Shown here piece by piece: positions 45,005-64,000 of a stretch of 64,000 nucleotides of DNA. The first letter of the stretch is position 1. Every line of letters begins with the position of its first letter. The DNA is taken from the IMG/VR virus record IMGVR_UViG_3300044730_001993, positions 23,861 to 87,860 of that record; one strand, written 5' to 3'. A model generated the notes under the pieces. That model made no database searches. It was given only the letters and a program-made list of their open reading frames with translations, and was not told where the DNA came from. The translations under genes and the position numbers were made by a program. This stretch comes from a virus.

Positions 45005-45181
45005 TCACGACGCCGTGCGATTCTCTCCGCCCGCCGTTAGCAGCGCGAGCCCGCACCGGAGCACGTCGGCCCGCGTACCGACGGCGCCCGAAACGCAGTT
45101 GCGCCACCGCTCGCATCGCGCGTCGCACGGGCGCCACCCCTCGCGGAACACCGCCATCGTCACTCGCAGCGCGAGGCTCAC
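45005..45181 (-). CDS. Small Cys/Arg-rich protein, low certainty
   Basis: 58 aa, GTG start overlapping the PP2C stop (GTGA). Contains WRPCDARCERWRNCVSG, four to five Cys. No family. The overlap with the PP2C gene is the main support. Confidence 0.45.
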   Translation of the reverse strand: MSLALRVTMAVFREGWRPCDARCERWRNCVSGAVGTRADVLRCGLALLTAGGENRTAS

Positions 45182-45864: not shown

Positions 45865-45887
45865 AATGGCGACCACGATAACACCGA

Positions 45888-48674: not shown

Positions 48675-49295
48675 TCAGAATCCGGGGTCGAAATCGTAGG
48701 CGAGCGCGAGACTGTACTCGCGGTGCTTGATGTCGAGCTTCATGCGCTTCGCCGCCGCTTCGATGGCCTTGCGGTCCTTCGGGTGTACTTCATCCCACCG
48801 CAGCCCGCGGGAATGGTGCGCCGTTCCGCTTACGCGAGCCACGTTGCCGTACCGATCGTTCCCGAGTTTTCGGGCGAGCGCGCGGAGCTCGATGAACTTC
48901 TCGTCGTCGAGCTTCGCCTTCGCCTCCTGCTTCGCCTTCGCGGCGAGCCCCGCGGGCGAACGGCAGTAGTCGCACGGGCCTGCCCAGTGCCCGGTGTCTT
49001 CGTTGTAGCCTGCGTCGCACTCACACGCGGTCGGAGCGGCCTTCGGCTCGGGCGCGAGAAGCGATTCGGGCGACGCGCCTACGGACGTCATACGCATCGT
49101 ACCGCCGCCGGATACGGCGTACCACGATCCGATTTTGTAACGCTCACCCATCGTCTTGCGCGCAAACTTGCGTGCGCCAGCGAGGGTCTTGAAGTGTCGC
49201 GTCGCACTGTACCCGTCCGACGACTTGAGATAGATGGTGATCTCGCCGGAGTTGCGAACCGAACGTCGGACTCGCGTCTTGCTTTTCTTGCTCAT
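48675..49295 (-). CDS. Hypothetical protein with N-terminal Arg-Asn-Ser tag and Cys site
   Basis: 206 aa. Tag VRRSVRNSGEI (Asn 15). Then a small beta/alpha unit (ITIYLKSSDGYSATRHFKTL) that resembles a DUF-like single-domain nucleic-acid binder, a Cys site (CECDAGY, CDYC) and a helical C-terminus. Function unknown. Confidence 0.7.
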   Translation of the reverse strand: MSKKSKTRVRRSVRNSGEITIYLKSSDGYSATRHFKTLAGARKFARKTMGERYKIGSWYAVSGGGTMRMTSVGASPESLLAPEPKAAPTACECDAGYNEDTGHWAGPCDYCRSPAGLAAKAKQEAKAKLDDEKFIELRALARKLGNDRYGNVARVSGTAHHSRGLRWDEVHPKDRKAIEAAAKRMKLDIKHREYSLALAYDFDPGF

Positions 49296-49332
49296 GGGGT
49301 AGGATCATACCGGAGAGCGCGGGGCGGCACAA
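49296..49332 (-). promoter_or_regulatory. Sigma70-like promoter
   Basis: TTGTGC (49332-49327), 17 nt, TATGAT (49309-49304), 8 nt, ATG 49295. One of the best -10 matches in the window. Confidence 0.7.
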
Positions 49333-49353
49333 CTTCGTTGTTGCTGCGCCTTC

Positions 49354-49587
49354 TCACCCATCGCTCCGCCACCACTTGCCGCCGTTGAACCGGAAACCGT
49401 TCGCTCGAAGCCACGACTTCTCGGCATCGGCGGTGTGCCGACCGAAGCGGTCTGCCATCCACCCGTACTCGTACTCAGAATGCGGAGGGTTGCCCGATAA
49501 CACGACGCGTCGCAGTCGCTCCGTCGCGAGAGACGGCGGAGCGTCGGCGAAATACTCTCCGAACGTGGTGGAACTAATCGTTCTCAC
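49354..49587 (-). CDS. Hypothetical small protein
   Basis: 77 aa, GTG start in a GTGA overlap. Aromatic-rich (YEYGWMADRFGRHTADAEKS, FRFNGGKWW), similar to small winged-helix-like or FGG-KWW modules. Function unknown. Confidence 0.6.
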   Translation of the reverse strand: MRTISSTTFGEYFADAPPSLATERLRRVVLSGNPPHSEYEYGWMADRFGRHTADAEKSWLRANGFRFNGGKWWRSDG

Positions 49588-49799
49588 TCGCCGCGCGCCC
49601 GCGATCGTTCGAGTTCCGTCGCGGTCGCCGACACCAGCGCCGCGACGGCGGCGAGGGCGTCGTAGAGCATCGGGAGAGCCGCCGCGCGGCACCCCGCGCC
49701 GTAACGCATTTCGGCCTCCGCAGCGGCGAGAAGGCGCCTCGCTTCGGCCAGCGCCGAAGCCTCGCGGTCGGTGAGTTGCCCGCTCACTTGCGGTTCCGC
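49584..49799 (-). CDS. Small Ala/Arg-rich helical protein
   Basis: 71 aa, mostly one helical hairpin (REASALAEARRLLAAAEAEM, MLYDALAAVAALVSATATEL). It begins about a dozen bases beyond the right end of IscB element 1. Confidence 0.6.
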   Translation of the reverse strand, partial: AEPQVSGQLTDREASALAEARRLLAAAEAEMRYGAGCRAAALPMLYDALAAVAALVSATATELERSRARGE

Positions 49800-49843
49800 C
49801 ATTGGGCGGTAGTCACGATTTGCCCGAGCGGTTGCGCCGCTAT

Positions 49844-51226
49844 TCACGGCGGAAGGGGAGCGGATTTTCGGACCGCGACGGCATCGCGCTTCTCCTCTTG
49901 CCACGCATATCGGTATCCGTCGGCGCGTTGCAACACGCCGCAGTGTTTCCAAATCACGTCGATCCTCTTGTCTTTAGCGCAAATGGCGAATTGACCATTC
50001 GCCCGCACGGCAACGCGCCCGACGTACGTTCCAGCGTACTTGCCTCGCGGCGGTGTAGCACGGACCATATCGCCAGTGCGGAATCCACGCACGGACTTCT
50101 CGCGCATCTTCGGAACGCCGCGAGGGAAACCGTAGGCGTCCGAGTGTTGCCGTTGGTACGTGCCGCGCCCCGTGCTGTAAACGTAGAGCGTTTGCGTGTC
50201 GGCACCAATCACACCGCCGACGTTACCCGCGCACACGGCGTCGTTGGCGTGCGTCTTCGGAACGTTGAAACGGTGGCGGTTCCACTTCGTTCGCCCGCCA
50301 CTTGACGCCTCGACGGGCACCCCGAGAGACCGCAGCGCGCGATCGAGCGCCCATCGGGTCGAGTTCACCGCCGCCGCGTCGCGCAGCGACTCCTTGAGTC
50401 CTGCGAGAATGCGCGCCGCGCGTTTCGGGTCACGTTGGAGAAACACCGCCAGTGGTTGCGCGCCCTTGCGCTGGTTGCAGGGAACGCAGGCGGGCACGAG
50501 GTTGCTCGGGCGACTGCTTCCGCCGCTCACCCGCGGCACGACGTGATCGAGGTTCAGCGCCACGTTCTCGGCGTCGCAGTAGGCGCACGAGCGACCCCAC
50601 TTCTCCAACACCCACTCCCGAGTCTCGTAACCTGCGAGCGTGCCTTGCCGGTATTCCACGCCGCTGATCTCCGGGTTCTGCATCAACTGCGTGTCGAAAC
50701 GCACCCGCTCCACGCTCACGGCGGCGACGGGATACCAGCGCATGAGACGACGAGTCCATGAGAGCGTCGTTTCGACGCGGTGGTTGAGAGACGGTCGCAG
50801 CGTGCCCTTCGCGGGTCGGCGATTGCTGAAACGCGCCGGTCGGTAGCGAAGGTTTGCTAGGCGACGGCGCCTTCTGCTAGACGATCGCCTCTCCATCTGC
50901 CCGCGGATAACGTCGCCGCGGTGCGTGAGTTCCATCTTGAACAGGACGACGCGCGTCGGGCCGTCGCCTTCGCTGGCGGCGGGAACCTCGCGGACGACGG
51001 CGATGCCCGTCGTCTTGCTGCCGGGATCTTCGCAGACCCGGACGGGTTGCACGTCACCACCGACACGATCCTTGAGACGGATCACGAACGGCGTGTGATG
51101 CGCCACCACCGCACGCCCCGCACGGAGCAACTGGCGTGCTCGCGCGGGATGGCACGGCATCAGCGGAACGCCGCGCTTGTCCAGTACCGGAACCCACGCT
51201 TCTTCGGAACGATTCTTCTCGATCAT
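49844..51226 (-). CDS. iscB: IscB RNA-guided nuclease, copy 1
   Basis: 460 aa. PLMP domain at 12-39 (PVLDKRGVPLMPCHPARARQ); RuvC-I CEDPGSKTTGIAVV with Asp 67; Arg-rich bridge helix ~110-135; RuvC-II VSVERVRFDTQ with Glu 173; HNH 214-255 with CAYC, LDH (His 228), Asn 242 and CVPC; RuvC-III KTHANDAV with Asp 329; C-terminal target-interaction-like region to 460. All catalytic residues are present. IscB is the ancestor of Cas9 and is guided by an omega-RNA encoded upstream, as found here. Length is normal. Confidence 0.93.
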   Translation of the reverse strand: MIEKNRSEEAWVPVLDKRGVPLMPCHPARARQLLRAGRAVVAHHTPFVIRLKDRVGGDVQPVRVCEDPGSKTTGIAVVREVPAASEGDGPTRVVLFKMELTHRGDVIRGQMERRSSSRRRRRLANLRYRPARFSNRRPAKGTLRPSLNHRVETTLSWTRRLMRWYPVAAVSVERVRFDTQLMQNPEISGVEYRQGTLAGYETREWVLEKWGRSCAYCDAENVALNLDHVVPRVSGGSSRPSNLVPACVPCNQRKGAQPLAVFLQRDPKRAARILAGLKESLRDAAAVNSTRWALDRALRSLGVPVEASSGGRTKWNRHRFNVPKTHANDAVCAGNVGGVIGADTQTLYVYSTGRGTYQRQHSDAYGFPRGVPKMREKSVRGFRTGDMVRATPPRGKYAGTYVGRVAVRANGQFAICAKDKRIDVIWKHCGVLQRADGYRYAWQEEKRDAVAVRKSAPLPP

Positions 51227-51530
51227 TGGCGTTACCGCCTCAGTTGGGGCCTTGCGGCCTTGTCGTGACGGAACCGCGAGGCACCGCGGTTCGCTCCCCT
51301 CGTGAATGTCGATCGTCGCCCATGTGCGTACCCGTTTCTGTCTGACCCGACGTGACTACTGCACGCACTGCAAGTGGGTACGGACTGAGGAAGCATCCGT
51401 ACGTTGCCCGAGGCAAGCGTTCCGATCGACGTAGCGAGGCTCGAACGGGTTGCCAACCCTACCCTCGCTAACACTGGTAAACATGGGCTTTCTCAGTCTC
51501 CTTAGAAAGCCTCCGCCCGAAGGCGGAGGT
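51227..51530 (-). ncRNA. Omega-RNA region of IscB copy 1
   Basis: The 235 nt just before the start codon are nearly identical to the region before copy 2, except for one block at 51271-51292 that keeps a hairpin (GAACCGCG/CGCGGTTC) although its sequence differs. Other stems include TTGCC/GGCAA near 51.41 kb, and 51487-51510 and 51510-51529 (CCTCCGCC/GGCGGAGG). The guide would lie at the 5' end, toward 51530-51630. Exact ends are inferred. Confidence 0.75.
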
Positions 51531-51589
51531 CGATTACACGCCGATGGGAGCGACGCGAATAGGAGCGTCGTGGTGCATGTCTCGCGACA

Positions 51590-52039
51590 CTATAGCGCGA
51601 TTCCATCCAGCAATGTCTCGTTTTTTGTCTTTTCACGCATCGCCGCGCCGTTGCCGACGTACTGGCCTCCCGCGCGAAGGTCGACGGGGGCACCCGTTTC
51701 GAGCGCAGTGCGGATCGTGCCGCCCGTTCCGCGAGCGCGCCCGCCGAAGCCCGCGCCGCGATACCACTCGGTGTACTCACCTCGCGCGTGTTCGGCATCG
51801 AAGCCGCCGCACGCGAGGAGCGACTGCGCGAGGGCGACCGCCATCTGCGTGTCGTCCGTGAACGCCCCCGCCTTCTCGCCGTCGGGTCCGAGGCCGAACT
51901 GGCGCCCGCCGTCGTCGCACGCGAGAAACGTGTTGTCGGGGTCGTGGCACCACGAGTAGCGGGCGCGGTCGTCGCGCGATTGCTCGAAGGGCTTGCCGAG
52001 CGCGTCGGCGGTCGCGAGTGCTGTGAGAACGTGACGCAT
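51590..52039 (-). pseudogene. ADP-ribosylglycohydrolase (DraG/ARH family), truncated by the IscB element
   Basis: 149 codons. The N-terminal half is typical: TADALGKPFE, FTDDTQMAVALAQSL (metal-binding Asp pair), a TGGTIRTAL helix and YVGNGAAMR. Full-length members run ~250-300 residues and need a second Asp pair near the C-terminus; that part is missing. The frame departs from the family right after GNGAAMR and ends 14 codons later inside the element. The C-terminal half is not found elsewhere in the window. Confidence 0.75.
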
Positions 52040-52197
52040 TACGATTCCTCGTTTTCGATGCCGATTAGCACGGCGGTGGTGAGAAGAAAACAGCACAAGG
52101 CCATCGGGTCGAGACGCGACGCTGCCAGCGCGAAGAACGCGCCGTCGATCGCGTAGAGGCACTTCGTCGCCGCACGTTCGAGCGAGACAACGATCAC
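52039..52197 (-). CDS. Small membrane protein
   Basis: 52 aa, GTG start overlapping the upstream stop; its TAA overlaps the next ATG. A hydrophobic segment (MALCCFLLTTAVLIGI) follows a short helix. Function unknown. Confidence 0.55.
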   Translation of the reverse strand: MIVVSLERAATKCLYAIDGAFFALAASRLDPMALCCFLLTTAVLIGIENEES

Positions 52198-52658
52198 GGA
52201 TGCACCCGCCCCGCGAGGAGCGCGTCGAGGCAAGCCTTCGCGTGCTCTCGCGCTGCGGTGAAGTCCGCGAACGACACCTCCGTTTCGGTGCGCCCGTCGC
52301 CCGTCGGCACGAGCCCGCCGTGTGCGTGGCGCAGCGTCACCTTGCGCGACGTGAGGCTCGACTCGATCACGAACGGCCCGACGGTGGCGCTCTCCCGCGC
52401 CTCGCGGGCCTTCTCCGCGACCGTGGCGGCGGGAGTCCCGACGGGGGCACCGCGGAGCGTCTCGAACAGCCACGAGTCACGCGGCGTGATCGTGCGCCCG
52501 TCGTCGTCGCGCCACACGACGATGCCGCGCTTCACGGAGACCACCTCGGCGGTCACCTCGACGTGCGGCGAGGGGCCGACGTGCTCGCGCCTCACCACCC
52601 GGAGGGTGACGTTGCCGTCGGGGGCGAGCGCGAGGAGTTGTGTGACGGTGGGGATCAT
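52194..52658 (-). CDS. Hypothetical protein
   Basis: 154 aa, ATG in an ATGA overlap. Beta-rich (NVTLRVVRREHVGPSPHVEV, AEVVSVKRGIVVWRDDDGR), helix, strand and a final helix. No family recognised. Confidence 0.65.
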   Translation of the reverse strand: MIPTVTQLLALAPDGNVTLRVVRREHVGPSPHVEVTAEVVSVKRGIVVWRDDDGRTITPRDSWLFETLRGAPVGTPAATVAEKAREARESATVGPFVIESSLTSRKVTLRHAHGGLVPTGDGRTETEVSFADFTAAREHAKACLDALLAGRVHP

Positions 52659-53434
52659 CCCCATCCGACGTTGTAGCGGCGCCTGTATTCAGCGAAATCT
52701 GCGATGGCCTGCGCATCGAGGAACGCGCACTCTTCGTTGCGGGAGTACCGGACGCAGTGATCGATCACGTCGAGCGCAACGGCGACGGGCGCGAGCAATG
52801 GCGCGCAGTAGCCGTAACGCATCTGCACTTCGCCCACCGATGCGACGGACGAGAACGAGACTTCGCCAGTGACGATGCGACGCGCCAGTTCAGCGTTCGG
52901 GCGAACGATGAACCTCACGCTTCGGGTCGGGCCGAAGTGATCGTGGTCGCCTGTCGCGTACACGCCCACACCGCGCTCGTCGATCGACACGATGAACGTC
53001 GCGCGACCGATGCGCCACCGCGGCGCCTTCGTCGTATGCGTGAGAACCTCCCACCCGCAGCGGTCCTTGCCCGAGAGGTACGGCTCGGCGCTCGGGGCGC
53101 CGTACCGTTCCGTGAGCGTCGCAACGATCGCAGCGTACGTGCTCGCGGGGTCGTCCGTCACGCCGCGCAGTTCGCGAACGAGCGGCGCCCGACGCGCGGT
53201 GTCCTGAGCCTTCGCTGCGGCGACTACGCGGTCGTTGCGAGCCTTCTCGGCACCGTACTCGCTCGCGCGCCGAAGGTCTTGCGGGTCGATCGCCTTGCCC
53301 GTGCGCGCAGCGTCGGCGATGCTCCTCGCCGTAGCGTTGAGCACGGCCTCGATGCGCTCCGACTCCTTGCGGGCAGCGTGCGTGGCGGCGTTGAGTTTCG
53401 CGAGTTCTGCGAGAACGTCGATCGTGTGTCTCAC
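52655..53434 (-). CDS. Hypothetical protein
   Basis: 259 aa, GTG start. N-terminal coiled-coil-like helices (~1-90), then a beta-rich domain (TFIVSIDERGVGVYATGDHD). No family recognised. Co-transcribed with neighbours. Confidence 0.65.
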   Translation of the reverse strand: MRHTIDVLAELAKLNAATHAARKESERIEAVLNATARSIADAARTGKAIDPQDLRRASEYGAEKARNDRVVAAAKAQDTARRAPLVRELRGVTDDPASTYAAIVATLTERYGAPSAEPYLSGKDRCGWEVLTHTTKAPRWRIGRATFIVSIDERGVGVYATGDHDHFGPTRSVRFIVRPNAELARRIVTGEVSFSSVASVGEVQMRYGYCAPLLAPVAVALDVIDHCVRYSRNEECAFLDAQAIADFAEYRRRYNVGWG

Positions 53435-53715
53435 GGTGCCTCCGAGGTGCGGAACGGTTGCCCGGTGCCGCGGTGAGCGGCGAAGATCGAGTTGAGCGCC
53501 TGCGCCATCGCTTCGGCGTCGTCGCGCGAGAACTGGAACGCGATGCGCGAGTCGCCGACGCGGCCCTCGCGGAGCATCGTGAGGGCATCGGTCAACCCGA
53601 GACCGAAGTGCTTGCGAAGCGCGAGCACGGCGGTGACCTTGTAGTCGTCGCTCACTCCCGCGATCGTGATGCGGTAGCGCGTGGCGGTGTCGGTGGTGTC
53701 GGTCGCGTCACGCAT
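53431..53715 (-). CDS. Second L7/L12 C-terminal-like protein
   Basis: 94 aa. YKVTAVLALRKHFGLGLTDALTMLREG resembles the L7/L12 C-terminal helix-turn (x-V-I-K-x-V-R-x-x-T-G-L-G-L-x-E-A). Flanking strands fit. Paralogue in pattern to the 42525-42914 protein. Partner unknown. Confidence 0.6.
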   Translation of the reverse strand: MRDATDTTDTATRYRITIAGVSDDYKVTAVLALRKHFGLGLTDALTMLREGRVGDSRIAFQFSRDDAEAMAQALNSIFAAHRGTGQPFRTSEAP

Positions 53716-53992
53716 CGAGAAACTCGATCGTGCGCGCTGCGAGGGCGAGGTGCGCGGCGGGGGTCTCGTTCTCGCCCGTGGCCTCGATGCGGTGCCACGG
53801 GAGCACCTCGCGCCACTGGCCGTCGTGGAAGTGCTCGGTTTTCGCGCTAACGTCGTCGGGCTCGTTGCCGAAGTTCTCCCACCGCGAAGTGGTCACCCGG
53901 ATCTTGCGGCCCGAGAGAAGCCACACACTCACCGCGGTGTGGTTCTTGATGTCTTTACTCGTGTCGAACAGAAACGGTTTCGTGTCGATCAT
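53708..53992 (-). CDS. Hypothetical small protein
   Basis: 94 aa, beta-rich (HTAVSVWLLSGRKIRVTTSR). Untagged, heads an operon with the L7/L12-like gene; three-box promoter. Confidence 0.65.
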   Translation of the reverse strand: MIDTKPFLFDTSKDIKNHTAVSVWLLSGRKIRVTTSRWENFGNEPDDVSAKTEHFHDGQWREVLPWHRIEATGENETPAAHLALAARTIEFLDA

Positions 53993-53998
53993 GGTGTG

Positions 53999-54044
53999 CC
54001 TTCTGCGTGCGGTGGGCGGGTGTTCTTGCGGCGCTGCGGCGATT
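53999..54044 (-). promoter_or_regulatory. Three-box promoter of the 53992 gene
   Basis: AATCG (54044-54040), 9 nt, CGCAAG (54030-54025), 17 nt, CGCAGAAGG (54007-53999), 6 nt, ATG. The C-for-T change occurs in both CGTA copies. Confidence 0.7.
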
Positions 54045-54055
54045 TCTCGCTCCCG

Positions 54056-54298
54056 CTAGGCGTGCCGCTCCGTGATGCGCGGGTCGTCGAGGTAAAGCGT
54101 GACGCCCCGGAAGATATCGGGGCACGACCACACGCGGTCGACCACGCGGCGCTTGAGTCCGTCTTCGAGCACCACGGAGTCGCCGATGGCGGGCGGGACC
54201 GCCGTCGAAGTGCGCCCGTACGACTCGTACCGCCCGGTGCCGATCGTGCCGTTGACTACTTCGACGAAAATGCGAACCGAAACTTCGTTGCTGCTCAT
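54056..54298 (-). CDS. Hypothetical small beta-rich protein
   Basis: 80 aa, predicted all-beta (SVRIFVEVVNGTIGTGRYES, VVLEDGLKRRVVDRVW). Untagged; three-box promoter. Confidence 0.65.
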   Translation of the reverse strand: MSSNEVSVRIFVEVVNGTIGTGRYESYGRTSTAVPPAIGDSVVLEDGLKRRVVDRVWSCPDIFRGVTLYLDDPRITERHA

Positions 54299-54301
54299 GC
54301 C

Positions 54302-54347
54302 GCTTGTACGTCGGGTCGGCGCCGAACCTATCACCGCCGCGTCGATT
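54302..54347 (-). promoter_or_regulatory. Three-box promoter of the 54298 gene (weak second box)
   Basis: AATCG (54347-54343), 9 nt, TGATAG in place of CGTAAG (54333-54328), 17 nt, CGTACAAGC (54310-54302), 3 nt, ATG. Confidence 0.5.
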
Positions 54348-54359
54348 TTCTCGTCGGAG

Positions 54360-54971
54360 CTACCGGCAGCGACCGTTGCGAGTCGACGGGCGCGACACGC
54401 GCACGACGATCTTGTCGGCGCCGTTGCCGCTCGCGAGGCTCACGTCGGCGTCGCTGAGTCGGTTCGGGTGGCGCGCGTACAGCACCCGCTTCTGGCCCGA
54501 CGCGCTCCCGTTCATCGCCATGAATCGCACCGCGACCGCCATGCTCGACTCGGGCAACACCGTCGTGTTCTCGATCGCGAGCGTCACGCCCTTGTCGATC
54601 CCGATGCCGCGCGAGCCCTTCACCACCACGACGCGAGCGCCGGGGCGAACGCCCGCCTGCGCGAGAACGTCGTCGTAGCGGGCCGTCGCCGACACACGGG
54701 CGGGCACTTCGCCGTCGCGGCGGAGGTAGGCGCGATCGACCGCGGCAACCGCCTCGTCGGCCCCGACGAAATCGACGAACGCTCTCGCGGCGGCGTGAAC
54801 CGTCAAGAAGTCGTAGCGGCCCTTGTTGCGCCCACGATCGACGTAGACGGCGAACAGGCGCGTGCCCGTGAGGTCGCCAGCGCCGACGGTCACGTCGTCG
54901 GTGAGGGGAACGATGCCGTCGCCGATCGCTCGCGCGACGTAGCGCGCGGCTTCTGTTTTCGTGGTTGCCAT
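54360..54971 (-). CDS. Hypothetical protein with C-terminal Arg-Asn-Gly tail
   Basis: 203 aa. Alpha/beta (LFAVYVDRGRNKGRYDFLTV, GARVVVVKGSRGIGID), ending VSRPSTRNGRCR. A sigma70-like promoter (TTGCGA, 18 nt, TACGGT, 7 nt) precedes the ATG. Function unknown. Confidence 0.7.
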   Translation of the reverse strand: MATTKTEAARYVARAIGDGIVPLTDDVTVGAGDLTGTRLFAVYVDRGRNKGRYDFLTVHAAARAFVDFVGADEAVAAVDRAYLRRDGEVPARVSATARYDDVLAQAGVRPGARVVVVKGSRGIGIDKGVTLAIENTTVLPESSMAVAVRFMAMNGSASGQKRVLYARHPNRLSDADVSLASGNGADKIVVRVSRPSTRNGRCR

Positions 54972-55012
54972 GCGTGGCACCGTACTACGGGATCGCCCGC
55001 AGTCGCAACGTT

Positions 55013-55327
55013 TCACCACGCCAGCAAGGCGTCCAGTTCGTCCGCGAGGCGCAGTCGCACGGCGCGGCGGGCGACCGCAGCGACGAACCACGGCGGCGCC
55101 CCTGCGAGGCACGCCGTGGCCTCCGCGGTGCGCCCGACGAACGATGCGAGTTCGCCCGCGCCGAGCGCCAGCGGTTCGCCACGCACGCCGTCGAGCACCG
55201 CGGCGCACTCGATCAGGTCGAGCGCACGGGACCAGCGGAAAACGTGCGAAGTGCCGTTGCTCCGCCACGCGGGCGTGCGGATGGCGGCGCGACGGTGTTT
55301 CTGGAGACGGCGGCGGGTGCAGTTCAT
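55013..55327 (-). CDS. Hypothetical helical protein
   Basis: 104 aa. Basic N-terminus (CTRRRLQKHRRAA) then Leu/Ala-rich helices (ALDLIECAAVLDGVRGEPLA). Function unknown. Confidence 0.55.
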   Translation of the reverse strand: MNCTRRRLQKHRRAAIRTPAWRSNGTSHVFRWSRALDLIECAAVLDGVRGEPLALGAGELASFVGRTAEATACLAGAPPWFVAAVARRAVRLRLADELDALLAW

Positions 55328-55359
55328 GCTCCGTGTGACGAAGCGACGGGCGGCGGGAT

Positions 55360-55983
55360 TCAGCGGTAGGGATTGACCCAGTTGTTCCGCGCGTGATCCG
55401 AGATGCGACCGTCGCGGTTCAGTTCGTCGGTGTAGTCGAGCCACGCCGTACGCACCGAGACGCGATCCGTGTGGCGAAGGTGCGGGAGCACGTTCTCGCG
55501 GAACGATCGGTTCACTTCGGCCTTGCTCATCATCTTGCCGCGCTTCGCGCCGTTGCGCGACGCCTTGCGCTTCGCGGCGGGCTTGCGCGCCGGGGCGAGT
55601 TGCTTCGCGTACTCCTCGATCACGGCCATCACGGCGACGTCGAGGTTCTTCTTCTGCGCGGCGGTGAGCGTCTTCCACGCGCCCATCGTGAACTCGGGCG
55701 GGCACGAGTGGTCGAGCGCGCCGACCATCGACACGAACCACGCAGCGCGGTTCATGCGCTTGTTCACGACCACTTCGCGGGCCTCGGTGTAGGCCCCGAA
55801 GCCGTAGTTCCCTTCGAGAATCCACGCGATGCGTTCGGCGACGCGATCGGGGTGCTGCGCCATCACCTCGCGGAACTCGCTGCGCGCCTCTTGACGGTCG
55901 CGGAGGGGCTGCTTCTCCGTGTCGGCGATCTGCGCACGAAACATGCGCTTCTCGCGCGCGGCGTACTCTCGTTCGGTTTCCAT
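55360..55983 (-). CDS. Hypothetical protein with internal Arg-Asn-Gly tag
   Basis: 207 aa. A helical N-terminal domain to ~130, a basic linker KRKASRNGAKRGKMM, and a C-terminal helical segment ending ARNNWVNPYR. The tag again lies between domains. Confidence 0.65.
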   Translation of the reverse strand: METEREYAAREKRMFRAQIADTEKQPLRDRQEARSEFREVMAQHPDRVAERIAWILEGNYGFGAYTEAREVVVNKRMNRAAWFVSMVGALDHSCPPEFTMGAWKTLTAAQKKNLDVAVMAVIEEYAKQLAPARKPAAKRKASRNGAKRGKMMSKAEVNRSFRENVLPHLRHTDRVSVRTAWLDYTDELNRDGRISDHARNNWVNPYR

Positions 55984-56006
55984 GTTCGTGTTCTCGCTCG
56001 ACGTTC

Positions 56007-56597
56007 TCAGTACCGACGGTTGCGCGCGCTCGGCGCCTCGAACCACGGGTCGCGCGTGGTACTCCCGAAGCCGTACGCCTCGATGATCGCCTTCGCGGCC
56101 TTCTCGACGGGGTAGTGCTCCATGTTCCCGTCCACGGCGACGGCCTTGCTGAGCACGAGTTGATCCTTCGTGAGAACGACCACTTCTCCCGTGCTCTCGG
56201 TGCCGCCGAACTTGCCTCCGTGGATCAGAATGAGGTCGCCCTCGAACTGCCAGTAGTCGACGAGGTTCGTCGCCCGAACGAAGACACCGGGTTTGCCGGA
56301 GCGCATCGCCTCCGTGACGTACTTGCGGTCGCTCTCGCCACGATCGGCGATGATGGCGTCCTTGATCTGCTTCTTCCACTCGCCGATGTTTCCCTTGAGC
56401 GGGACGGCGAGGATGAGCGCCTCCATCGCCTTCTGCGCGGCGTCGGAACCGGCGTACTCGCCGACTTCGCGCTCGATCTTCTTGAGCGCGCGATCGACCG
56501 GGCCGAGGCCGCGGGCGACGGGGTTTCGCACGGCGCGGCGCTTCGCGGCGGGCTTGCGAGCAGCGGCGCGCTTGGGGGACTTGCGTGTGGTTGCCAT
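56007..56597 (-). CDS. Hypothetical protein with N-terminal Arg-Asn-Pro tag
   Basis: 196 aa. Long basic Ala/Lys/Arg N-terminus ending RRAVRNPVARG (Asn 25), a helical region and a beta-rich part (DLILIHGGKFGGTESTGEVV). GGAG lies upstream of the ATG. Function unknown. Confidence 0.7.
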   Translation of the reverse strand: MATTRKSPKRAAARKPAAKRRAVRNPVARGLGPVDRALKKIEREVGEYAGSDAAQKAMEALILAVPLKGNIGEWKKQIKDAIIADRGESDRKYVTEAMRSGKPGVFVRATNLVDYWQFEGDLILIHGGKFGGTESTGEVVVLTKDQLVLSKAVAVDGNMEHYPVEKAAKAIIEAYGFGSTTRDPWFEAPSARNRRY

Positions 56598-56682
56598 TGT
56601 GATTTTCTCCGAGTGTTCCCTGCCGACGGTGCCCGATTATGCGGGCGATTGCAATAGCGAACGGCGCGCTTCTCGCGACGGA

Positions 56683-57075
56683 CTACTTCTGCTCAAGCAT
56701 CCCCGTGAGCACCACGAGCACGAACTCGTTCCAGTGCTCCATGCACTGCGTCACGTCGACCACGATGCCAACGTGCCCGAACTCGTCGCGCAACCGCGCC
56801 GACTCGACGGTGCCGACGCACACCTCCGCTTCGCCCGCGCCGACGTACAGGCGGGCGAGGCACCCGTCGGCCTTGCGGACGCTCCACGGTTGACCGCGAA
56901 GGACGTTCGCCTCACGCACGCCGACTTCGGTGCCGGGGATGTACGCACCACCGACGGACACGACCTTGCGACCGACGATGCCGAACGCCGTGAACATCGC
57001 GTTGAGCGCGGCATCGGCGGCGCGGGCGGCATCTTCGTAGCGGGACACTGCGGAAACCATCGGGTTCGTGTTCAT
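56683..57075 (-). CDS. Hypothetical protein
   Basis: 130 aa, alpha then beta (GRKVVSVGGAYIPGTEVGVR, GIVVDVTQCMEHWNEFVLV). Untagged; three-box promoter. Confidence 0.65.
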   Translation of the reverse strand: MNTNPMVSAVSRYEDAARAADAALNAMFTAFGIVGRKVVSVGGAYIPGTEVGVREANVLRGQPWSVRKADGCLARLYVGAGEAEVCVGTVESARLRDEFGHVGIVVDVTQCMEHWNEFVLVVLTGMLEQK

Positions 57076-57082
57076 GGTGCCC

Positions 57083-57128
57083 ACTCTTACGCCTCGCGCC
57101 GCGGAGTTCTTACGTCGCACCGTCGGTT
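57083..57128 (-). promoter_or_regulatory. Three-box promoter of the 57075 gene
   Basis: AACCG (57128-57124), 9 nt, CGTAAG (57114-57109), 17 nt, CGTAAGAGT (57091-57083), 7 nt, ATG. Confidence 0.65.
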
Positions 57129-57163
57129 TCCGCCGCACCGCTTGCTGCGCGGCGCGCGAGAGG

Positions 57164-57209
57164 AATCGGCGACGCGGCGTAAGGTCCGTCGTGCTGGCGA
57201 CGTAGAAGG
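57164..57209 (+). promoter_or_regulatory. Three-box promoter of the 57216 gene
   Basis: AATCG (57164-57168), 9 nt, CGTAAG (57178-57183), 17 nt, CGTAGAAGG (57201-57209), 6 nt, ATG. Confidence 0.7.
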
Positions 57210-57215
57210 GGGACC

Positions 57216-57443
57216 ATGCGAGACCAATTCAGCAATCAACTCGAAGCCGCTCGCCAGAACCTCCGCACGCTCCGCGCGCAACTCGAAACCGCGCGTCGGT
57301 GCCTCCGCAGCGCAATCGCGGAGTACGTTGCCGACCCGTGCGAGGCCACGGAACTCACCGTCGCCACCAAGGGCGCATCGGTGTGTGCGATCGAGGCGCG
57401 GATCAAGAGCGGAGTCGACGCGCTCGACGCGGTGATCGGGTAA
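57216..57443 (+). CDS. Small coiled-coil protein
   Basis: 75 aa, two long helices with heptad Leu/Ala (QLEAARQNLRTLRAQLETAR, KGASVCAIEARIKSGVDALD). Untagged. Function unknown. Confidence 0.7.
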   Translation: MRDQFSNQLEAARQNLRTLRAQLETARRCLRSAIAEYVADPCEATELTVATKGASVCAIEARIKSGVDALDAVIG

Positions 57444-57471
57444 CCTACCGCCGCACGGTGCGTGCAGGAGA

Positions 57472-57517
57472 AATCAGTGTGGCCGCGCAAGAATCGGGTC
57501 GCCACCGCCGTAGAAGG
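57472..57517 (+). promoter_or_regulatory. Three-box promoter of the 57524 gene
   Basis: AATCA (57472-57476), 9 nt, CGCAAG (57486-57491), 17 nt, CGTAGAAGG (57509-57517), 6 nt, ATG. Confidence 0.7.
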
Positions 57518-57523
57518 TTCACC

Positions 57524-57979
57524 ATGAAGAACACCGCCCGCACCGCTCCCGACCCCGAGTTCGTCGCCATCATGCGAGAGAACCCGCTTCATGTTTTCGT
57601 GTACCGAGCGGGGCAAGCGGTCGACGCGGGCAAGCGCCAGTGGGCGGACGTGGCGAGGATCTACGGTGAGGCGATCCCCGGCATCGTGCTCGACGAGGTT
57701 CCCGCCGCGGGCGGCGCCCTCGTGGCGCTTCTCACCGCCTATTCGACGGCGACAACGGCCATCGCGATCCTGCATACCGAGCGGTGTTTCGGCGCCGTGA
57801 TCGGTGGGTGCAGCGCCGAGGAGCGTGCCTACATCGGCAAGGCGTGGATTCAGGAGGGTCTCGAAGCGGAGACCGCCTTCTCGTTCGCGTGCGCGCGAAG
57901 GCTTATGGAAATGGGCGAGAGCGTCGAGGATGCGGTGGCCGACGCCCCCGCGCGCCGCGCCCGTCGCTCCTCGCGCTAG
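57524..57979 (+). CDS. Hypothetical helical protein
   Basis: 151 aa, all-alpha (YRAGQAVDAGKRQWADVARI, GGALVALLTAYSTATTAIAI) with a basic end (PARRARRSSR). Ends with TAG. No family recognised. Converges on the cysteine desulfurase gene. Confidence 0.7.
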   Translation: MKNTARTAPDPEFVAIMRENPLHVFVYRAGQAVDAGKRQWADVARIYGEAIPGIVLDEVPAAGGALVALLTAYSTATTAIAILHTERCFGAVIGGCSAEERAYIGKAWIQEGLEAETAFSFACARRLMEMGESVEDAVADAPARRARRSSR

Positions 57980-57980
57980 C

Positions 57981-59243
57981 CTACCGCCGCGCCGGACACA
58001 CGCCGCCGTCGCAGCCCGCGGGAACGTCGCACCCTACGCCCACGAGCGGCATCGCCGCGTCGGCAATCACCTTCGCCGCCATGCGAACGTTCTCTTCGTT
58101 GTTGCACTTGCCGAGGCCGATGCGAACTACCGCGCCATCGTCGGGAATGCCCATCGCTTCGAGAACGTGACTCCGCTCGCCGCCGAGCGACTTGCACGCC
58201 GCCGCCGCCGACACGTCGATCTTGCTCCGCACCGCGGCGTCGAGCGAAATCGGGCACACGCCCACGAGACGAACCGAGAGCGAGTGCGGGAGTCGCAGTC
58301 GTCGCGCCGGATCGTTCGTCGCTTGCGGCGAACCGATCGGAGCGTCGATCGCGCCGTTCACCTGAACGATTTCGTCGCCGAGCGACTCGCGCAGGAGTCG
58401 GAGCATAAGGTCGCGCAGGCGGCAGAGTCGCAGCGCCTCACCCGCGAGCCCGCCGACGTTCTGCGGCCCCACGTTCCACGTTCGCATTTCGCGGCACGCG
58501 GCGCCGAAACCGGCGATGCCGTGCAGGTTCAGCGTGCCGCCGCGCACGCCGTTTTGCTGCGAGCCACCGAGCGCAGGCACCGACATACGCGCGAGTAAAC
58601 GTTGCGGAATCAGAACGCAGCCCACGCCGGTAGGTCCGTTGAGCTTGTGCGCGCTCGCGCTCGCGAAGTCGAAGCCGCGCAGCGGAATCTTGCCGAACGA
58701 CTGGCATAGATCGGAGTGCATCGGCACGCCGTAAGCGTGCGCGACCGCTGCGATTTCTTCGATCGGCTGGATACCGCCGAGTTCATTCTGCGCGCCCATC
58801 ACGGAAACGAGCACCGTGTCGGGGCGGATCGCACGGGCCACGTCGGCGGGGTTCACGATGCCCGACGCGCCCACGGGGACTGCCGTGAACGTGCATTGCC
58901 CGCGCTTCGCGAGTTGACGCAGGGGCACGAGAATGGCGCTGTGCTCGATCGCAGAAGTGACGATGTGAGGGCGCCGCCCGCGCTCGTTCTCGCCATCGAC
59001 GATTGACCTGAGTACGATGCCGTTCGATTCTGTAGCGCCCGAAGTGAAGTAGATGTCTGCCGGATCGACGCCGCCCATCGTCTCGGCGACGCAGCGGCGG
59101 GCATCCTCGACGATCTTCGACGCCGCCTTCCCACCCTCGTGCGACGACGAGGCGTTGCCAGCGACGCGCATCGCCCGCACCACGGCGTCGATCACGGCTT
59201 CGGAGGGAGGGGTGGTCGAGTGGTGGTCGAGAAAAATGGTCAT
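57981..59243 (-). CDS. Cysteine desulfurase-like PLP enzyme (IscS/NifS family)
   Basis: 420 aa. N-terminal FLDHHSTTPP, SGATESNGIVLRS (PLP phosphate site), SAIEHSA (stacking His), SDLCQSFGKIPL (Asp/Gln around the ring), SASAHKLNGPTGVG (PLP Lys) and AAAACKSLGGERSHV in the position of the catalytic Cys loop. It should release sulfur from cysteine as a protein persulfide. The C-terminus adds GCDVPAGCDGGVCPARR, three extra Cys. No scaffold, dnd or tRNA-thiolation gene is nearby, so the acceptor is unknown. Confidence 0.88.
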   Translation of the reverse strand: MTIFLDHHSTTPPSEAVIDAVVRAMRVAGNASSSHEGGKAASKIVEDARRCVAETMGGVDPADIYFTSGATESNGIVLRSIVDGENERGRRPHIVTSAIEHSAILVPLRQLAKRGQCTFTAVPVGASGIVNPADVARAIRPDTVLVSVMGAQNELGGIQPIEEIAAVAHAYGVPMHSDLCQSFGKIPLRGFDFASASAHKLNGPTGVGCVLIPQRLLARMSVPALGGSQQNGVRGGTLNLHGIAGFGAACREMRTWNVGPQNVGGLAGEALRLCRLRDLMLRLLRESLGDEIVQVNGAIDAPIGSPQATNDPARRLRLPHSLSVRLVGVCPISLDAAVRSKIDVSAAAACKSLGGERSHVLEAMGIPDDGAVVRIGLGKCNNEENVRMAAKVIADAAMPLVGVGCDVPAGCDGGVCPARR

Positions 59244-59324
59244 CGCGCCCTCACGTTACACCATGCGCGGCGCGATGGGGAGGAAAACGCGACGTTCTCG
59301 TTCGGCGTCGTTTGCCGCGGAACG

Positions 59325-59768
59325 TTACGGTCGCGGACCGCGCGGCTTCTTGACCGACTTCTGGATCTGCGCCATCGGCACGCTCCACGTCTTGATGTAG
59401 TCGGCGGCATCCGCGGTGTTGAAGCGGTGGAACTTGTGCCCGGTGAGGCGCTCCAGTTCAGTGGTGAACCCGATCATCGCGCCCATGTGTCCGATCGAGT
59501 CGCGCGCCTCCGCCTCCGACGCCGTGTCCGTCCATCGGTCCGCAGCGTACTCCTCCGGGTCGAACTTCCCACGGTCAAGTCGGGCCATCGCCACCGGGTT
59601 CGTCACGAACCGCTGCGCCCACGCCTTGCCCTCGTCGATCCACCACAACTCTTGACCGTGTTCGTGGAAGATGCGGTGCACGATGGCGTCGTACTCGTCC
59701 CACTGCTCCGCGAGCGACGGACGTTTCGACGGCGGGTTGCGGAGCGAGCGACGCTTGCTGGCGGGCAT
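59325..59768 (-). CDS. Hypothetical protein with N-terminal Arg-Asn-Pro tag (paralogue pair)
   Basis: 147 aa. Tag MPASKRRSLRNPPSK (Asn 11), then RPSLAEQWDEYDAIVHRIF, an EEYA--W segment, GFTTELERLTGHKFHRF and PRGPRP. The next gene upstream encodes a clear paralogue. Function unknown. Confidence 0.75.
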   Translation of the reverse strand: MPASKRRSLRNPPSKRPSLAEQWDEYDAIVHRIFHEHGQELWWIDEGKAWAQRFVTNPVAMARLDRGKFDPEEYAADRWTDTASEAEARDSIGHMGAMIGFTTELERLTGHKFHRFNTADAADYIKTWSVPMAQIQKSVKKPRGPRP

Positions 59769-59859
59769 TGACGTTTCCTTCGTGTGCGGTGGATGCTGCC
59801 GCTGGCTCAACTTCGCGCTCACCCTCGACGTGCGAGAGGTTCCCGCGAGGCGTGCCGAC

Positions 59860-60288
59860 TCAGTAGTTCGGCCTCGCCCCGCGCGGTCGCTTGAACATCT
59901 TCTGGACCTCATGAAACGGGATGTTCCACTGCTCGCGTGACGTACTGGAACGCAAGAACTTGCGGCCCGTGAGACGCTCCAGTTCATCAGCGAAACCGAC
60001 CTGCACCCCCATAAATCCGAGGCTATCCTTTACCTCTTCTTCCGTCGCTGCCTCGATCCACCACTCCGTGGCTTCTTCTTCGGGGTCGAACGACGGGGCG
60101 CTCATCATCTTCGCCGCATACGGCCTCGACACGAACTCACGCGCCCACTTCTCGCCCTGATCGACCCACTGCATTTGGATAATGTTTCTGCGGTAAGTTT
60201 CCGCGACGGCAGCGTCGTAGGCATCCCACTGCTCTGCCAGCGTGAGACGCTTTGGATTGTGGATGGACGTTCGCTTGCGGGTGGGCAT
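59860..60288 (-). CDS. Hypothetical protein with N-terminal His-Asn-Pro tag (paralogue pair)
   Basis: 142 aa. Tag MPTRKRTSIHNPKR (Asn 11), then LTLAEQWDAYDAAVAETYRR, FADELERLTGRKFLR and KRPRGARPNY. Same layout as the downstream gene, so a tandem duplication. Confidence 0.75.
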   Translation of the reverse strand: MPTRKRTSIHNPKRLTLAEQWDAYDAAVAETYRRNIIQMQWVDQGEKWAREFVSRPYAAKMMSAPSFDPEEEATEWWIEAATEEEVKDSLGFMGVQVGFADELERLTGRKFLRSSTSREQWNIPFHEVQKMFKRPRGARPNY

Positions 60289-60323
60289 GGGCCACAAATA
60301 CACGCCCGCGCCGCGCCCGTCAA
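60289..60323 (-). promoter_or_regulatory. Sigma70-like leaderless promoter
   Basis: TTGACG (60323-60318), 17 nt, TATTTG (60300-60295), 6 nt, ATG 60288. Confidence 0.65.
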
Positions 60324-60326
60324 CGC

Positions 60327-60707
60327 TCACCCCTCGCCGGGGTAGCGCATCCCGCAGCAGCAGTCGCCGTCGCCCGTCGAGAACTCGCGGCAGATCATCT
60401 CGCCACGGCACGTCGCGGGCTGCGCGCTGATCGGAGGCGGCGGCGGCGAGAACACCGACCTCACTTCTTCGTCGCTCATTTCGAGCGAGACCGTCGCGTA
60501 GTGCTCGACGAACACGGGCTCGTCGGGGCCACCCACGTCCGCGTACTCCTCCCACTTCGCGAACGCCAGCGCGGCGTCGATGCGCGCTACCAGCGCGGAG
60601 GTGAGTTCCTCGCGCGGAACCACGGCCTTGCGACCGCCAGCGAAGCAGAACTCGTACGGCGACTCGACGCCGTTCACGTCGGAAACGGTGATGTTTACGG
60701 GGTTCAT
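60327..60707 (-). CDS. Hypothetical protein with C-terminal Cys cluster
   Basis: 126 aa. Beta-rich N-terminus, a helix, a Pro run (SPPPPPIS) and a Cys-rich end (ATCRGEMICRE, GDCCCGMRY) that may bind metal. Untagged; three-box promoter. Confidence 0.7.
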   Translation of the reverse strand: MNPVNITVSDVNGVESPYEFCFAGGRKAVVPREELTSALVARIDAALAFAKWEEYADVGGPDEPVFVEHYATVSLEMSDEEVRSVFSPPPPPISAQPATCRGEMICREFSTGDGDCCCGMRYPGEG

Positions 60708-60711
60708 GCAC

Positions 60712-60758
60712 CCTCATACGCCCGCCGCCCCGCAGTTCTTTACGCCACCGCGTCGAAA
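60712..60758 (-). promoter_or_regulatory. Three-box promoter of the 60707 gene
   Basis: TTTCG (60758-60754, degenerate first box), 9 nt, CGTAAAG (60744-60738), 17 nt, CGTATGAGG (60720-60712), 4 nt, ATG. Confidence 0.6.
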
Positions 60759-60810
60759 ACAAATCACCGCCCCCGTGTCAGAACTCGCCGCCCCCGAGCG
60801 TATAAGCGGT

Positions 60811-61338
60811 ATGCACACCTCGACTGCCTCGCGCATCGCCGCCGCCCTCCTCGCCACCCCCGCCGACTACCTCGCCCGTTGCCTCGCGCAGCGGTGCCGC
60901 GGCGCCGACGCCTGCGGGTCGGTGTTCGCCGACTACAGCGACCCCGCCGCCCTTCTGCACGCCCTCCAGTCGGCCGCGTGGGAGGCGTACGAGCACCCCG
61001 CTATCATGGCGGGCTGCGCCGCGTTCCGCGCTCCGATGGCGGGCCGCGTGGGCATCGTGGCGCTCGCGTCGCTCCCCGCCGACACGACGGTCGTGCTCGC
61101 CGACGCGAAGCGCACCGGCTACGTCGAGGCGACCGTTCCCGGCGCCGCCACCACGCCGGTCGACTTCGCGGTTATCATCCTCGGCACCGACGAGGGGCAC
61201 GAGATCGTGTTCACGTTCCACCCCGGCGAACCGATCGCCCCGAGCACGCTCCCCGCGTCGCTGCTCAACGGCGCCCGCATGACCGCCGCGGTGGCGATCG
61301 AGCACGGGCTCACGCACGCGAAGGTCGTCGCGGCCTAG
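60811..61338 (+). CDS. Hypothetical protein
   Basis: 175 aa. Helical N-terminal half with Cys (YLARCLAQRCRGADACGSVF) and beta-rich second half (TTVVLADAKRTGYVEATVPG, HEIVFTFHPGEPI). Ends with TAG. CGTATAAGC lies 3 nt before the ATG, like the third box of the three-box class. Confidence 0.7.
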   Translation: MHTSTASRIAAALLATPADYLARCLAQRCRGADACGSVFADYSDPAALLHALQSAAWEAYEHPAIMAGCAAFRAPMAGRVGIVALASLPADTTVVLADAKRTGYVEATVPGAATTPVDFAVIILGTDEGHEIVFTFHPGEPIAPSTLPASLLNGARMTAAVAIEHGLTHAKVVAA

Positions 61339-62264
61339 CGCCGTCGGCGGCGCTTCATCGCCCGCCGTCCGTTCGGCGACGACTTGCGCGTCTCGCACGG
61401 CGCATCGCTCGCCGAACGTCGGGCGTCCCGCACCTCACGCACCAGTCGCTCCCACGCCGATCGCACGACGAACACCGGGTAACTGGAACGCCCATGCGCT
61501 CGCGCGAAGAACACGCGGTTGTTGCCGTTCTCCAGACCGAGACACGGCCCTGCCGCGTCGCTTGCGCTCATGCCGCTCGCGTGCCCGTAGTAACTCGTCG
61601 AGAACGCGGGGTCCGCCGTCCCGCCGATGGTCCCCTGCCTCGATTGCCGGTCGGGGTCGACGTGTGACGATGACGTGTGCAACCAGTCGATCGGCACGTT
61701 CACGAGCACGTAGCCGCCGCCTTCGCGCCCGTCGCGTTCGATGATGCGCGTGGTTCCGCGCGCCATCTTCGCTGCCGACTCCTGCGTCTGCGGTGGGCGA
61801 CCTTCGTACATCCCGAAGCGTCGCGGCAACTGGAACTGCTCCTGCCTCCGCGCCTCCTCGACAACCTCTTCGAGCGGAACCGACTGCGCCCGCGGGATGG
61901 GCGTTGCGATCGAGCGGGCCACCCGCTCCACCGCAGCATCGAAGCGACCCGCGAGTCGCTCCGCGACGATCGCTGCATCGAGTTCCGCTGCGACGATGAT
62001 CGACTCGGGACTGTTCGCGCGGCGCTGCCCCGTGGCTTCTTCGCGCCCGAACTTCACCTTGATGCCGTCCGCGATCAATGATCGCGCGAGTGCCCGCAGC
62101 GACTCCCATGCGTTGTCGCGCAGCGTTGTGTGGCCGACGCTGGCGCACCCGTGACGCGGAACTCCGACGGATACGGTCGTGCGACCATCGCGAACATCGA
62201 CGGCGATTCTCGCCCCGCGAAGCGACGTGATGCTCAATGCGCCCTCGTGCCTACGCGATTTCAT
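61335..62264 (-). CDS. Hypothetical protein with C-terminal Asn-Gly-Arg-Arg tail
   Basis: 309 aa. N-terminal beta domain (GARIAVDVRDGRTTVSVGV), helical middle, a domain with YVLVNVPIDWLHTSSSHVDP and NNRVFFARAHGRSSYPVFVV, ending SSPNGRRAMKRRRRR. Start overlaps the stop of the remnant upstream. Function unknown. Confidence 0.7.
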   Translation of the reverse strand: MKSRRHEGALSITSLRGARIAVDVRDGRTTVSVGVPRHGCASVGHTTLRDNAWESLRALARSLIADGIKVKFGREEATGQRRANSPESIIVAAELDAAIVAERLAGRFDAAVERVARSIATPIPRAQSVPLEEVVEEARRQEQFQLPRRFGMYEGRPPQTQESAAKMARGTTRIIERDGREGGGYVLVNVPIDWLHTSSSHVDPDRQSRQGTIGGTADPAFSTSYYGHASGMSASDAAGPCLGLENGNNRVFFARAHGRSSYPVFVVRSAWERLVREVRDARRSASDAPCETRKSSPNGRRAMKRRRRR

Positions 62265-62353
62265 CGTCGTTTACCCTTCATTGCCCGCCGCCCGTTCGCG
62301 TACGTCCGCACGGTCGGCACGACGGTCTGCAACCACGCGGCGGTGGTCGTCAT
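62261..62353 (-). pseudogene. C-terminal remnant of a tagged gene beside IscB element 2
   Basis: A 30-codon open end reads VVPTVRTYANGRRAMKGKRR and stops in an ATGA overlap with the next gene. Its tail is nearly the same as that of the 61335-62264 protein. The upstream part is replaced by the end of the IscB element, so it looks like the 3' end of an interrupted gene; an intact 30-aa gene is the alternative. Confidence 0.5.
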
Positions 62354-62400
62354 GACTTGCCAGCGCGGGTGCACAGCCATTCATGGCGGTGGGGAAGCGC

Positions 62401-63768
62401 CTATCGGTTAGTAACCGCATCGTTTTTCTCCTCGCGCCACGCGTAGCGGTAGCCATCGGCGCGCTGCAACACGCGGCAGTGTTTCCAAATCACGTCGATC
62501 CTCTTGCCCTGCGCATAGACCGCGAATTGACCTTTCGCGCGGACTGCGGCACGTCCGACGTGCATACCGGCGTGTTTTCCCTTCGGCATCACGGCGCGCA
62601 CGATATCACCCGTGCCGAAGCCCCGTACGCGCTTCTCACGCATCTTCGGAGCGCCACGAGGGAAACCATAGGCGTTCGAGTGTTGGCGTTGATACGTGCC
62701 GCGCCCCATGCACTCCACGTATAGCGTCTGCGTGTCGGCGCCGATCACGCCGCCGACGTTTCCCACGCACACGGCGTCGTTGGCGTGCGTCTTCGGAACG
62801 TTGAAGCGGTGGCGGTTCCACTTCGTTCGCCCGCCCGATGCTGCCTCGACGGGCACCCCGAGCGCCCGCAGTTCACGATCCAGCGCCCATCGCGTCGAGT
62901 TCATCGCCGCCGCGTCCCGCAGGGGCTTCTTGAGCCCCGCGAGAATGCGTGCCGCACGCTTCGGGTCGCGCTTGAGGAACGTCGTCAGTGATTGCGCGCC
63001 CTTCTTCTGGTTGCAGGGCACACACGCGGGCACGAGGTTACTCGGACGATTGCTCCCGCCGCTCACTCGCGGGACGACGTGATCGAGGTTGAGCGGCACG
63101 TTCCCCGCGTCGCAGTAGGCGCACGAGCGGCCCCACTTCTCCAGAACGTACTCGCGCGTCTCGTATCCGGCGAGGGTGCCTTGCTGGTACTCCACGCCGC
63201 TGATCTCCGGGTTCTCCATGAGTTGCGTGTCGAAGCGAACGCGCTCGACGCTCACGGCGGCGACGGGATACCAGCGCATGAGGCGCCGCGTCCACGAAAG
63301 CGTCGTGTCGAGGCGCGTACGCAGCGAAGGTGCAAGGCGACCCTTGCGGCGCGACGATGCGCGGTTGCTGTACCGTCGCTCACGGTAGCGCGTGTTCGCG
63401 CTGCGACGGCGCTTGCGGTTCGCCGAACGTTGCCCCATCTGCTTGTGGACGTCGGCGCCGCGGTGCGCGAGTTCCATCTTGAACAGCACGACGCGGGTCG
63501 GGCCATCGCCGTCGCTGGCGGCGGGAATCTCGCGGACCACGGCGATGCCCGTGGTCTTGCTGCCGGGATCTTCGCAGACGCGGACGGGTTGAACGTCGCC
63601 GCCCACGCGATCCTTGAGTCGGATCACGAACGGCGTGTGGTGCGCCACCACGGCACGCCCCGCACGAAGCATCTGACGCGCTCGCGCGGGATGGCACGGC
63701 ATCAGCGGGACGCCACGCTTGTCCAGCACCGGAACCCACGCTTCTTCGGAACGATTCTTCTCGATCAT
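62401..63768 (-). CDS. iscB: IscB RNA-guided nuclease, copy 2
   Basis: 455 aa. Same domain order as copy 1: PLMP, RuvC-I CEDPGSKTTG, Arg-rich bridge helix, RuvC-II VERVRFDTQ, HNH with CAYC, LDH and CVPC, RuvC-III KTHANDAV. All catalytic residues are kept. ATG 63768 corresponds to the copy 1 start; a longer frame upstream is omega-RNA sequence, not protein. Substitutions are scattered and conservative, so both copies look under selection. Confidence 0.93.
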   Translation of the reverse strand: MIEKNRSEEAWVPVLDKRGVPLMPCHPARARQMLRAGRAVVAHHTPFVIRLKDRVGGDVQPVRVCEDPGSKTTGIAVVREIPAASDGDGPTRVVLFKMELAHRGADVHKQMGQRSANRKRRRSANTRYRERRYSNRASSRRKGRLAPSLRTRLDTTLSWTRRLMRWYPVAAVSVERVRFDTQLMENPEISGVEYQQGTLAGYETREYVLEKWGRSCAYCDAGNVPLNLDHVVPRVSGGSNRPSNLVPACVPCNQKKGAQSLTTFLKRDPKRAARILAGLKKPLRDAAAMNSTRWALDRELRALGVPVEAASGGRTKWNRHRFNVPKTHANDAVCVGNVGGVIGADTQTLYVECMGRGTYQRQHSNAYGFPRGAPKMREKRVRGFGTGDIVRAVMPKGKHAGMHVGRAAVRAKGQFAVYAQGKRIDVIWKHCRVLQRADGYRYAWREEKNDAVTNR

Positions 63769-64000
63769 TGGCGTTACCGCCTCAGTTGGGGCCTTGCGGC
63801 CTTGTCGTGACGACCGCGGAGTGGCTCCCCCGCGGTGCTCCCCTCGTGAATGTCGATCGTCGCCCATGTGCGCACCCGTTTCTGTCTGACCCGACGTGAC
63901 TACTGCACGCACTGCAAGTGGGTACGGACTGAGGAAGCATCCGTACGTTGCCCGAGGCAAGCGTTCCGATCGACGTAGCGAGGCTCGAACGGGTTGCCAA
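63769..64000 (-). ncRNA. Omega-RNA region of IscB copy 2 (partial)
   Basis: Nearly identical to 51227-51460 except for the hairpin block at 63813-63836 (ACCGCGG/CCGCGGT), whose sequence differs while pairing is kept. The 5' guide end lies outside the window. Confidence 0.75.

Follow-up and report, generated by a model that had tools for sequence, protein, structure and literature searches.

The stretch of DNA analysed here (the window) comprises the final 64 kb of a virus-classed IMG/VR record of 87,860 bp, IMGVR_UViG_3300044730_001993 (G000:C1:23861-87860), and carries two iscB genes, designated copies A and B. IscB is an RNA-guided DNA cutter related to Cas9, and IscB/HEARO (OMEGA) systems were reportedly described by Altae-Tran in 2021. 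Copies A and B are new examples of this known family, ordinary in kind rather than a new system, and leave the current view of IscB function unchanged. They are probably stand-alone, selfish IscB OMEGA elements that cut alleles lacking them, and homing, or else retention at the insertion site, is the role that we consider most likely for both.

The genes and their RNAs occupy the following positions:

49844-51226, minus strand: iscB copy A, 460 aa, with RRXRR/PLMP, RuvC, bridge helix, HNH, RuvC and a C-terminal domain in this order
62401-63768, minus strand: iscB copy B, 455 aa, counted from the ATG of MIEKN
51289-51537, minus strand: omega-RNA scaffold of A, matching HEARO (RF02033) over model positions 1-211 with 73.5 bits (E=1.4e-13)
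63832-64000, minus strand: omega-RNA of B, its 5' part lost at the contig end (HEARO, 34.6 bits in the window)

As the initial annotation had stated, both genes are full-length and lie in the same orientation, and their identity as IscB/OMEGA is borne out by matches in Pfam, PDB and Rfam. The RRXRR domain (PF14239) is detected in A and B with E-values of 7e-63 and 8e-64, respectively, an HNH domain (PF01844/PF14279, E about 1e-10) is inserted in RuvC, and both proteins match the solved structures of TbaIscB, HfmIscB and OgeuIscB by sequence. The RRXRR/PLMP N-terminus, the split RuvC of the D...E...H..D type and the HNH domain point to membership of both in the IscB family. The RuvC and HNH residues said to be complete are indeed present in both copies (in A numbering, D67 of RuvC-I, E173 of RuvC-II, D227/H228 of HNH and H326/D329 of RuvC-III), and the columns of D67, H228, H326 and D329 show little or no variation in an alignment of 58 sequences, comprising A, B and 56 relatives. 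With these catalytic residues intact in both copies, it is exceedingly improbable that A and B are guide-directed repressors, like phage TldR, and not nucleases.

The HEARO match of A is full-length but falls below the Rfam gathering score of 83 bits. The omega-RNA of B is complete in a sister record, IMGVR_UViG_3300042340_000394 (L007:5688-5937), where it scores 83.3 bits, above the cut-off. A conserved upstream region of about 235 nt had been noted for each gene. Both copies do have an upstream omega-RNA, but the length of 235 nt is an artefact, because the contig, and hence the window, ends within the RNA gene of B; in the sister record, the conserved region upstream of the ATG of B is about 313 nt long. 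Outside two hairpins, the omega-RNAs of A and B differ by two substitutions, and both hairpins still pair, with different sequence.

The predicted guide of A and the gene that it falls in have these positions:

51538-51553, minus strand: predicted guide of A, 16 nt, TCGCTCCCATCGGCGT, within codons of the interrupted ADP-ribosylglycohydrolase gene (RVAPIGV)
51636-52162, minus strand: 5' part of the gene for a DraG-type ADP-ribosylglycohydrolase, the target gene of A

The region of guide A is coding sequence: it supplies VAPIGV, the expected next part of the ADP-ribosylglycohydrolase family motif, once an 80-nt insert is skipped. With the codons adjoining element A added, the Pfam score of the truncated glycohydrolase climbs from 70.5 to 82.5 bits. 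The insert itself (51556-51635), just upstream of guide A, separates the glycohydrolase codons AMR from VAPIGV, is fairly A-rich at its start and is unique in the element. On the sister contig, the RNA of B starts where a 348-aa open reading frame (ORF) has its 3' end. Joining the flanks of B closes this frame soon (VAAGKS*) or extends it by 24 codons up to an ATGA in which it overlaps the gene that follows, according to where the right boundary truly lies. Up to the RNA start, A and B have different 5' flanks.

We infer the following course of transcription, cleavage at a target motif and homing for A and B. Each element, about 1.7 kb in length, consists of an omega-RNA, iscB and a hairpin right end, and each omega-RNA would open with a guide copied from the sequence left of the insertion site, namely the conserved AMRVAPIG codons of the ADP-ribosylglycohydrolase for A and the 3' end of the 348-aa ORF for B. 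After transcription, IscB would take up the RNA and cleave the uninterrupted site beside a target-adjacent motif, probably NTGA- or NTGG-like. Repair templated by the copy that bears the element would then restore or spread it, while the resident copy would be spared because the element separates the target from the motif. RNA-guided cleavage by IscB/HEARO is established (PMC9755519), and retention and gene-drive behaviour has been demonstrated for the related TnpB (PMC11870625). A and B form a compact IscB pair that may be active and has natural guides, on a replicon classed as viral. The predicted guide of A coincides with conserved codons for the active site of a widespread enzyme, a common situation for the targets of homing endonucleases.

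Mobility of distantly related elements is seen among phages. The HNH endonuclease of Nodularia phage vB_NspS-kac68v162 (gp085), an IscB relative with 42% identity found on an isolated phage, belongs to an element (L140:2783-4304) that sits in a TnpB/IS607 transposase gene. The same site is empty, and the transposase gene intact, in the sister phages kac65v151 and kac68v161, so distant iscB elements come and go among phages. In contrast to A and B, this element is flanked by IS607/TnpB genes, and a search with its guide gave a full match at its own locus only.

Several observations weigh against a homing role of this kind for A and B. The predicted guide of the Nodularia element lies within the insert and not in the flank, unlike those of A and B, so the simple guide rule is not universal. 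The first stem of the RNA of A contains a U-U mismatch, this RNA scores under the Rfam cut-off, and a scan upstream of it found no sigma-70-like promoter. Insertion A was not simple, because no 3' half of the glycohydrolase follows element A. Finally, none of the collections searched yielded an empty allele of A or B: relatives of the flanking genes led to the same virus only, and the predicted empty site of B had 0 matches in IMG/VR.

The two iscB genes share 84% DNA identity, and the nonsynonymous and synonymous divergences (dN 0.10 vs dS 0.57, dN/dS about 0.18) indicate purifying selection between them. Divergence is uneven along the protein: in residues 101-152, the bridge-helix region, which contacts the guide in IsrB, dN is 0.43, vs 0.014 in residues 1-100. 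Across the family (58-sequence alignment), this segment is no more variable than the others. In other genomes with multiple copies, the upstream RNA is usually conserved no better than the iscB gene; near-identical scaffolds beside diverged genes of 83% identity, as in A and B, would be explained by homogenisation through recombination or by very strong constraint on the RNA, and provide a natural test of RNA sharing between paralogous OMEGA systems. A more elaborate scheme envisages a two-guide OMEGA set, in which gene conversion keeps the scaffolds identical, either protein works with either guide, the guide-touching bridge-helix segments diversify, and the set serves to home into and displace related viruses at sites in two genes, including the conserved codons for the active site of ADP-ribosylglycohydrolases; we regard this as quite unlikely.

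Another explanation of the near-identity of the omega-RNAs, or of the second copy itself, would be an assembly artefact, as two of the three records that hold this element stop at one and the same base inside the RNA gene of B. The third record, however, passes through copy B with unique flanks on both sides, and the assemblies are 100% concordant; since all three agree, an artefact is highly improbable.

A and B could instead be passive passengers, non-autonomous insertions mobilised in trans by a host TnpA, with a nuclease that has no present role on the element. The 87.9 + 34.5 kb of this element yielded neither the Y1 TnpA domain (PF01797) nor the C-terminal domain of TnpB (PF07282), which upholds the earlier statement that both proteins are missing; the lack of a TnpA is compatible with such mobilisation. 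The typical right-end hairpin has been retained, and the target gene of A is wrecked and bears the further 80-nt insert, as would also suit passengers. Against this stand the low dN/dS between the copies and the compensated hairpin changes in their RNAs, which together argue that function has been kept in the lineage, and we consider passive carriage possible but unlikely.

The initial annotation had also suggested exclusion of rivals. A virus holding two distinct guides on nearly identical scaffolds could be using them as a domesticated weapon to cut competing phages or plasmids, and the near-identity of the scaffolds implies that either protein could use either guide. However, the element contains no second target of guide A or B at up to two mismatches, and the guides resemble simple flanking sequence. 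The 16-mer of guide A has exact matches in 23 viral contigs of IMG/VR, two of which are from the same virus; none of the remaining matches extends more than 1 nt past the 16 nt, and many represent one conserved gene. By our own estimate, a collection of this size would contain about as many matches to a 16-mer by chance. Exclusion thus gains no specific support, and a weapon is very unlikely.

The right ends bear on both the boundaries and the expected target-adjacent motif:

49826-49860, minus strand: right-end hairpin region of A, to the family-typical end ...CCGCTC
49805-49825, minus strand: extra 21 nt beyond the typical right end of A, B-like, GGGCAAATCGTGACTACCGCC, containing GTGA
62363-62400, minus strand: right-end region of B, GCGCTTCC...hairpin...CCCGCGC, like plasmid relatives
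62339-62362, minus strand: extra 24 nt beyond the typical right end of B, A-like, containing ATGA

In relatives from plasmids and metagenome-assembled genomes (MAGs), the right end has the form GGCGCTATCC-hairpin-CGCGC. A TGA occurs within a few bases after CGCGC in 9/9 listed relatives (L134-L139, L025, L027, L037), as compared with a background frequency of 11% at random positions; a stricter automatic pattern recovered 6 right ends, 4 of them with TGA. While TGA follows the CGCGC end directly in the nine relatives, in A and B an RTGA lies a few bases further on. From the 21-24 nt shared beyond this normal right end, A and B would seem to derive from one copy that took along a piece of older flank. 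Because the flanks hold RTGA, and because the target motifs measured for IsrB are NTGA, NTG and NTGG (PMC9581776), the expected motif of A and B would be RTGA, or RTGG if the boundary follows the shared stretch. RTGG directly at the right end, our first idea, is retained as an alternative, since the shared sequence makes the right boundary uncertain. In two of the relatives (L025 and L139), the iscB frame continues across the right-end hairpin and terminates at a TGATG of the flank, so that iscB assumes stop-start coupling to the next gene.

Like other IscB/HEARO systems, A and B combine RRXRR/PLMP, split RuvC and HNH with an upstream HEARO RNA whose predicted 5' guide would derive from the flank. 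No CRISPR array was seen near A and B, and a TnpA, rare beside such systems, was not found in the element. Two diverged copies with nearly identical RNA scaffolds on one virus-classed contig are unusual for such systems, as are the mosaic bridge-helix segment of A and B and the 21-24 nt that they have in common beyond the usual right end. The initial view of transposase-free copies on a phage-like element as something special was not sustained: virus-borne IscB was already known, IscB loci seldom adjoin TnpA, more than 16% of HEARO/IscB contigs are classed as viral or prophage (PMC9755519), and plasmids commonly carry several stand-alone iscB copies. We identified 109 IscB-like places in 77 plasmid records, and the A/B subfamily is common on proteobacterial plasmids. 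The plasmid proteins of Cupriavidus, Allochromatium, Polaromonas, Methylobacter and Pseudomonas are 51-57% identical to A and B; like A and B, the proteobacterial plasmid elements have a HEARO RNA and the same right-end layout and stand alone, often several per plasmid.

TnpB of IS200/IS605, which acts as a gene drive in plasmids (PMC11870625), follows the same logic of retention and homing as that proposed for A and B, but it is a protein of the Cas12 lineage with its RNA on the opposite side of the gene. IS200/IS605-type mobile elements have subterminal hairpin ends on which a Y1 TnpA acts; A and B share a right-end hairpin with their relatives, and no TnpA was found in 122 kb. IsrB (PMC9581776) has the same RuvC/PLMP architecture, but it lacks HNH, which A and B have, and nicks; the NTGA-type motif was measured for IsrB and is only proposed from flanks for A and B. 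Cas9 has an adjacent CRISPR array, whereas no array-like direct repeats were detected in 49000-64000 of the window.

The contig of the sister record extends 34.5 kb beyond the window end, giving the carrier element a size of at least 122 kb (87.9 + 34.5 kb). Its genes include those for a tyrosine integrase, a UvrD-like helicase, sigma factors, a gp88-like protein, a cysteine desulfurase-like protein, a PP2C phosphatase and a NUDIX hydrolase. No terminase, portal or major capsid genes were recognised on the two contigs, both of which are incomplete. An apparent portal match proved to be the NUDIX gene and was obtained in all 14 control genomes as well, and was rejected as spurious. Of the earlier description as a phage-like replicon, the integrase, helicase, sigma factors and gp88-like gene stand in favour; as no capsid, portal or terminase was found, the phage label is weakly supported, mainly by the IMG/VR classification and also by gene layout.

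Other genes of the carrier deserve mention. Two big repetitive ORFs (651 and 1064 aa; 16673-22037) have many diverged internal repeats in common and weakly match a virion structural PHROG, probably via these repeats. The PP2C phosphatase and NUDIX hydrolase genes are consecutive with an uncharacterised small ORF (45178-47014) and may be signalling or anti-host genes. The cysteine desulfurase-like (Aminotran_5) gene, an unusual cargo, lies between iscB copies A and B (57981-59243).
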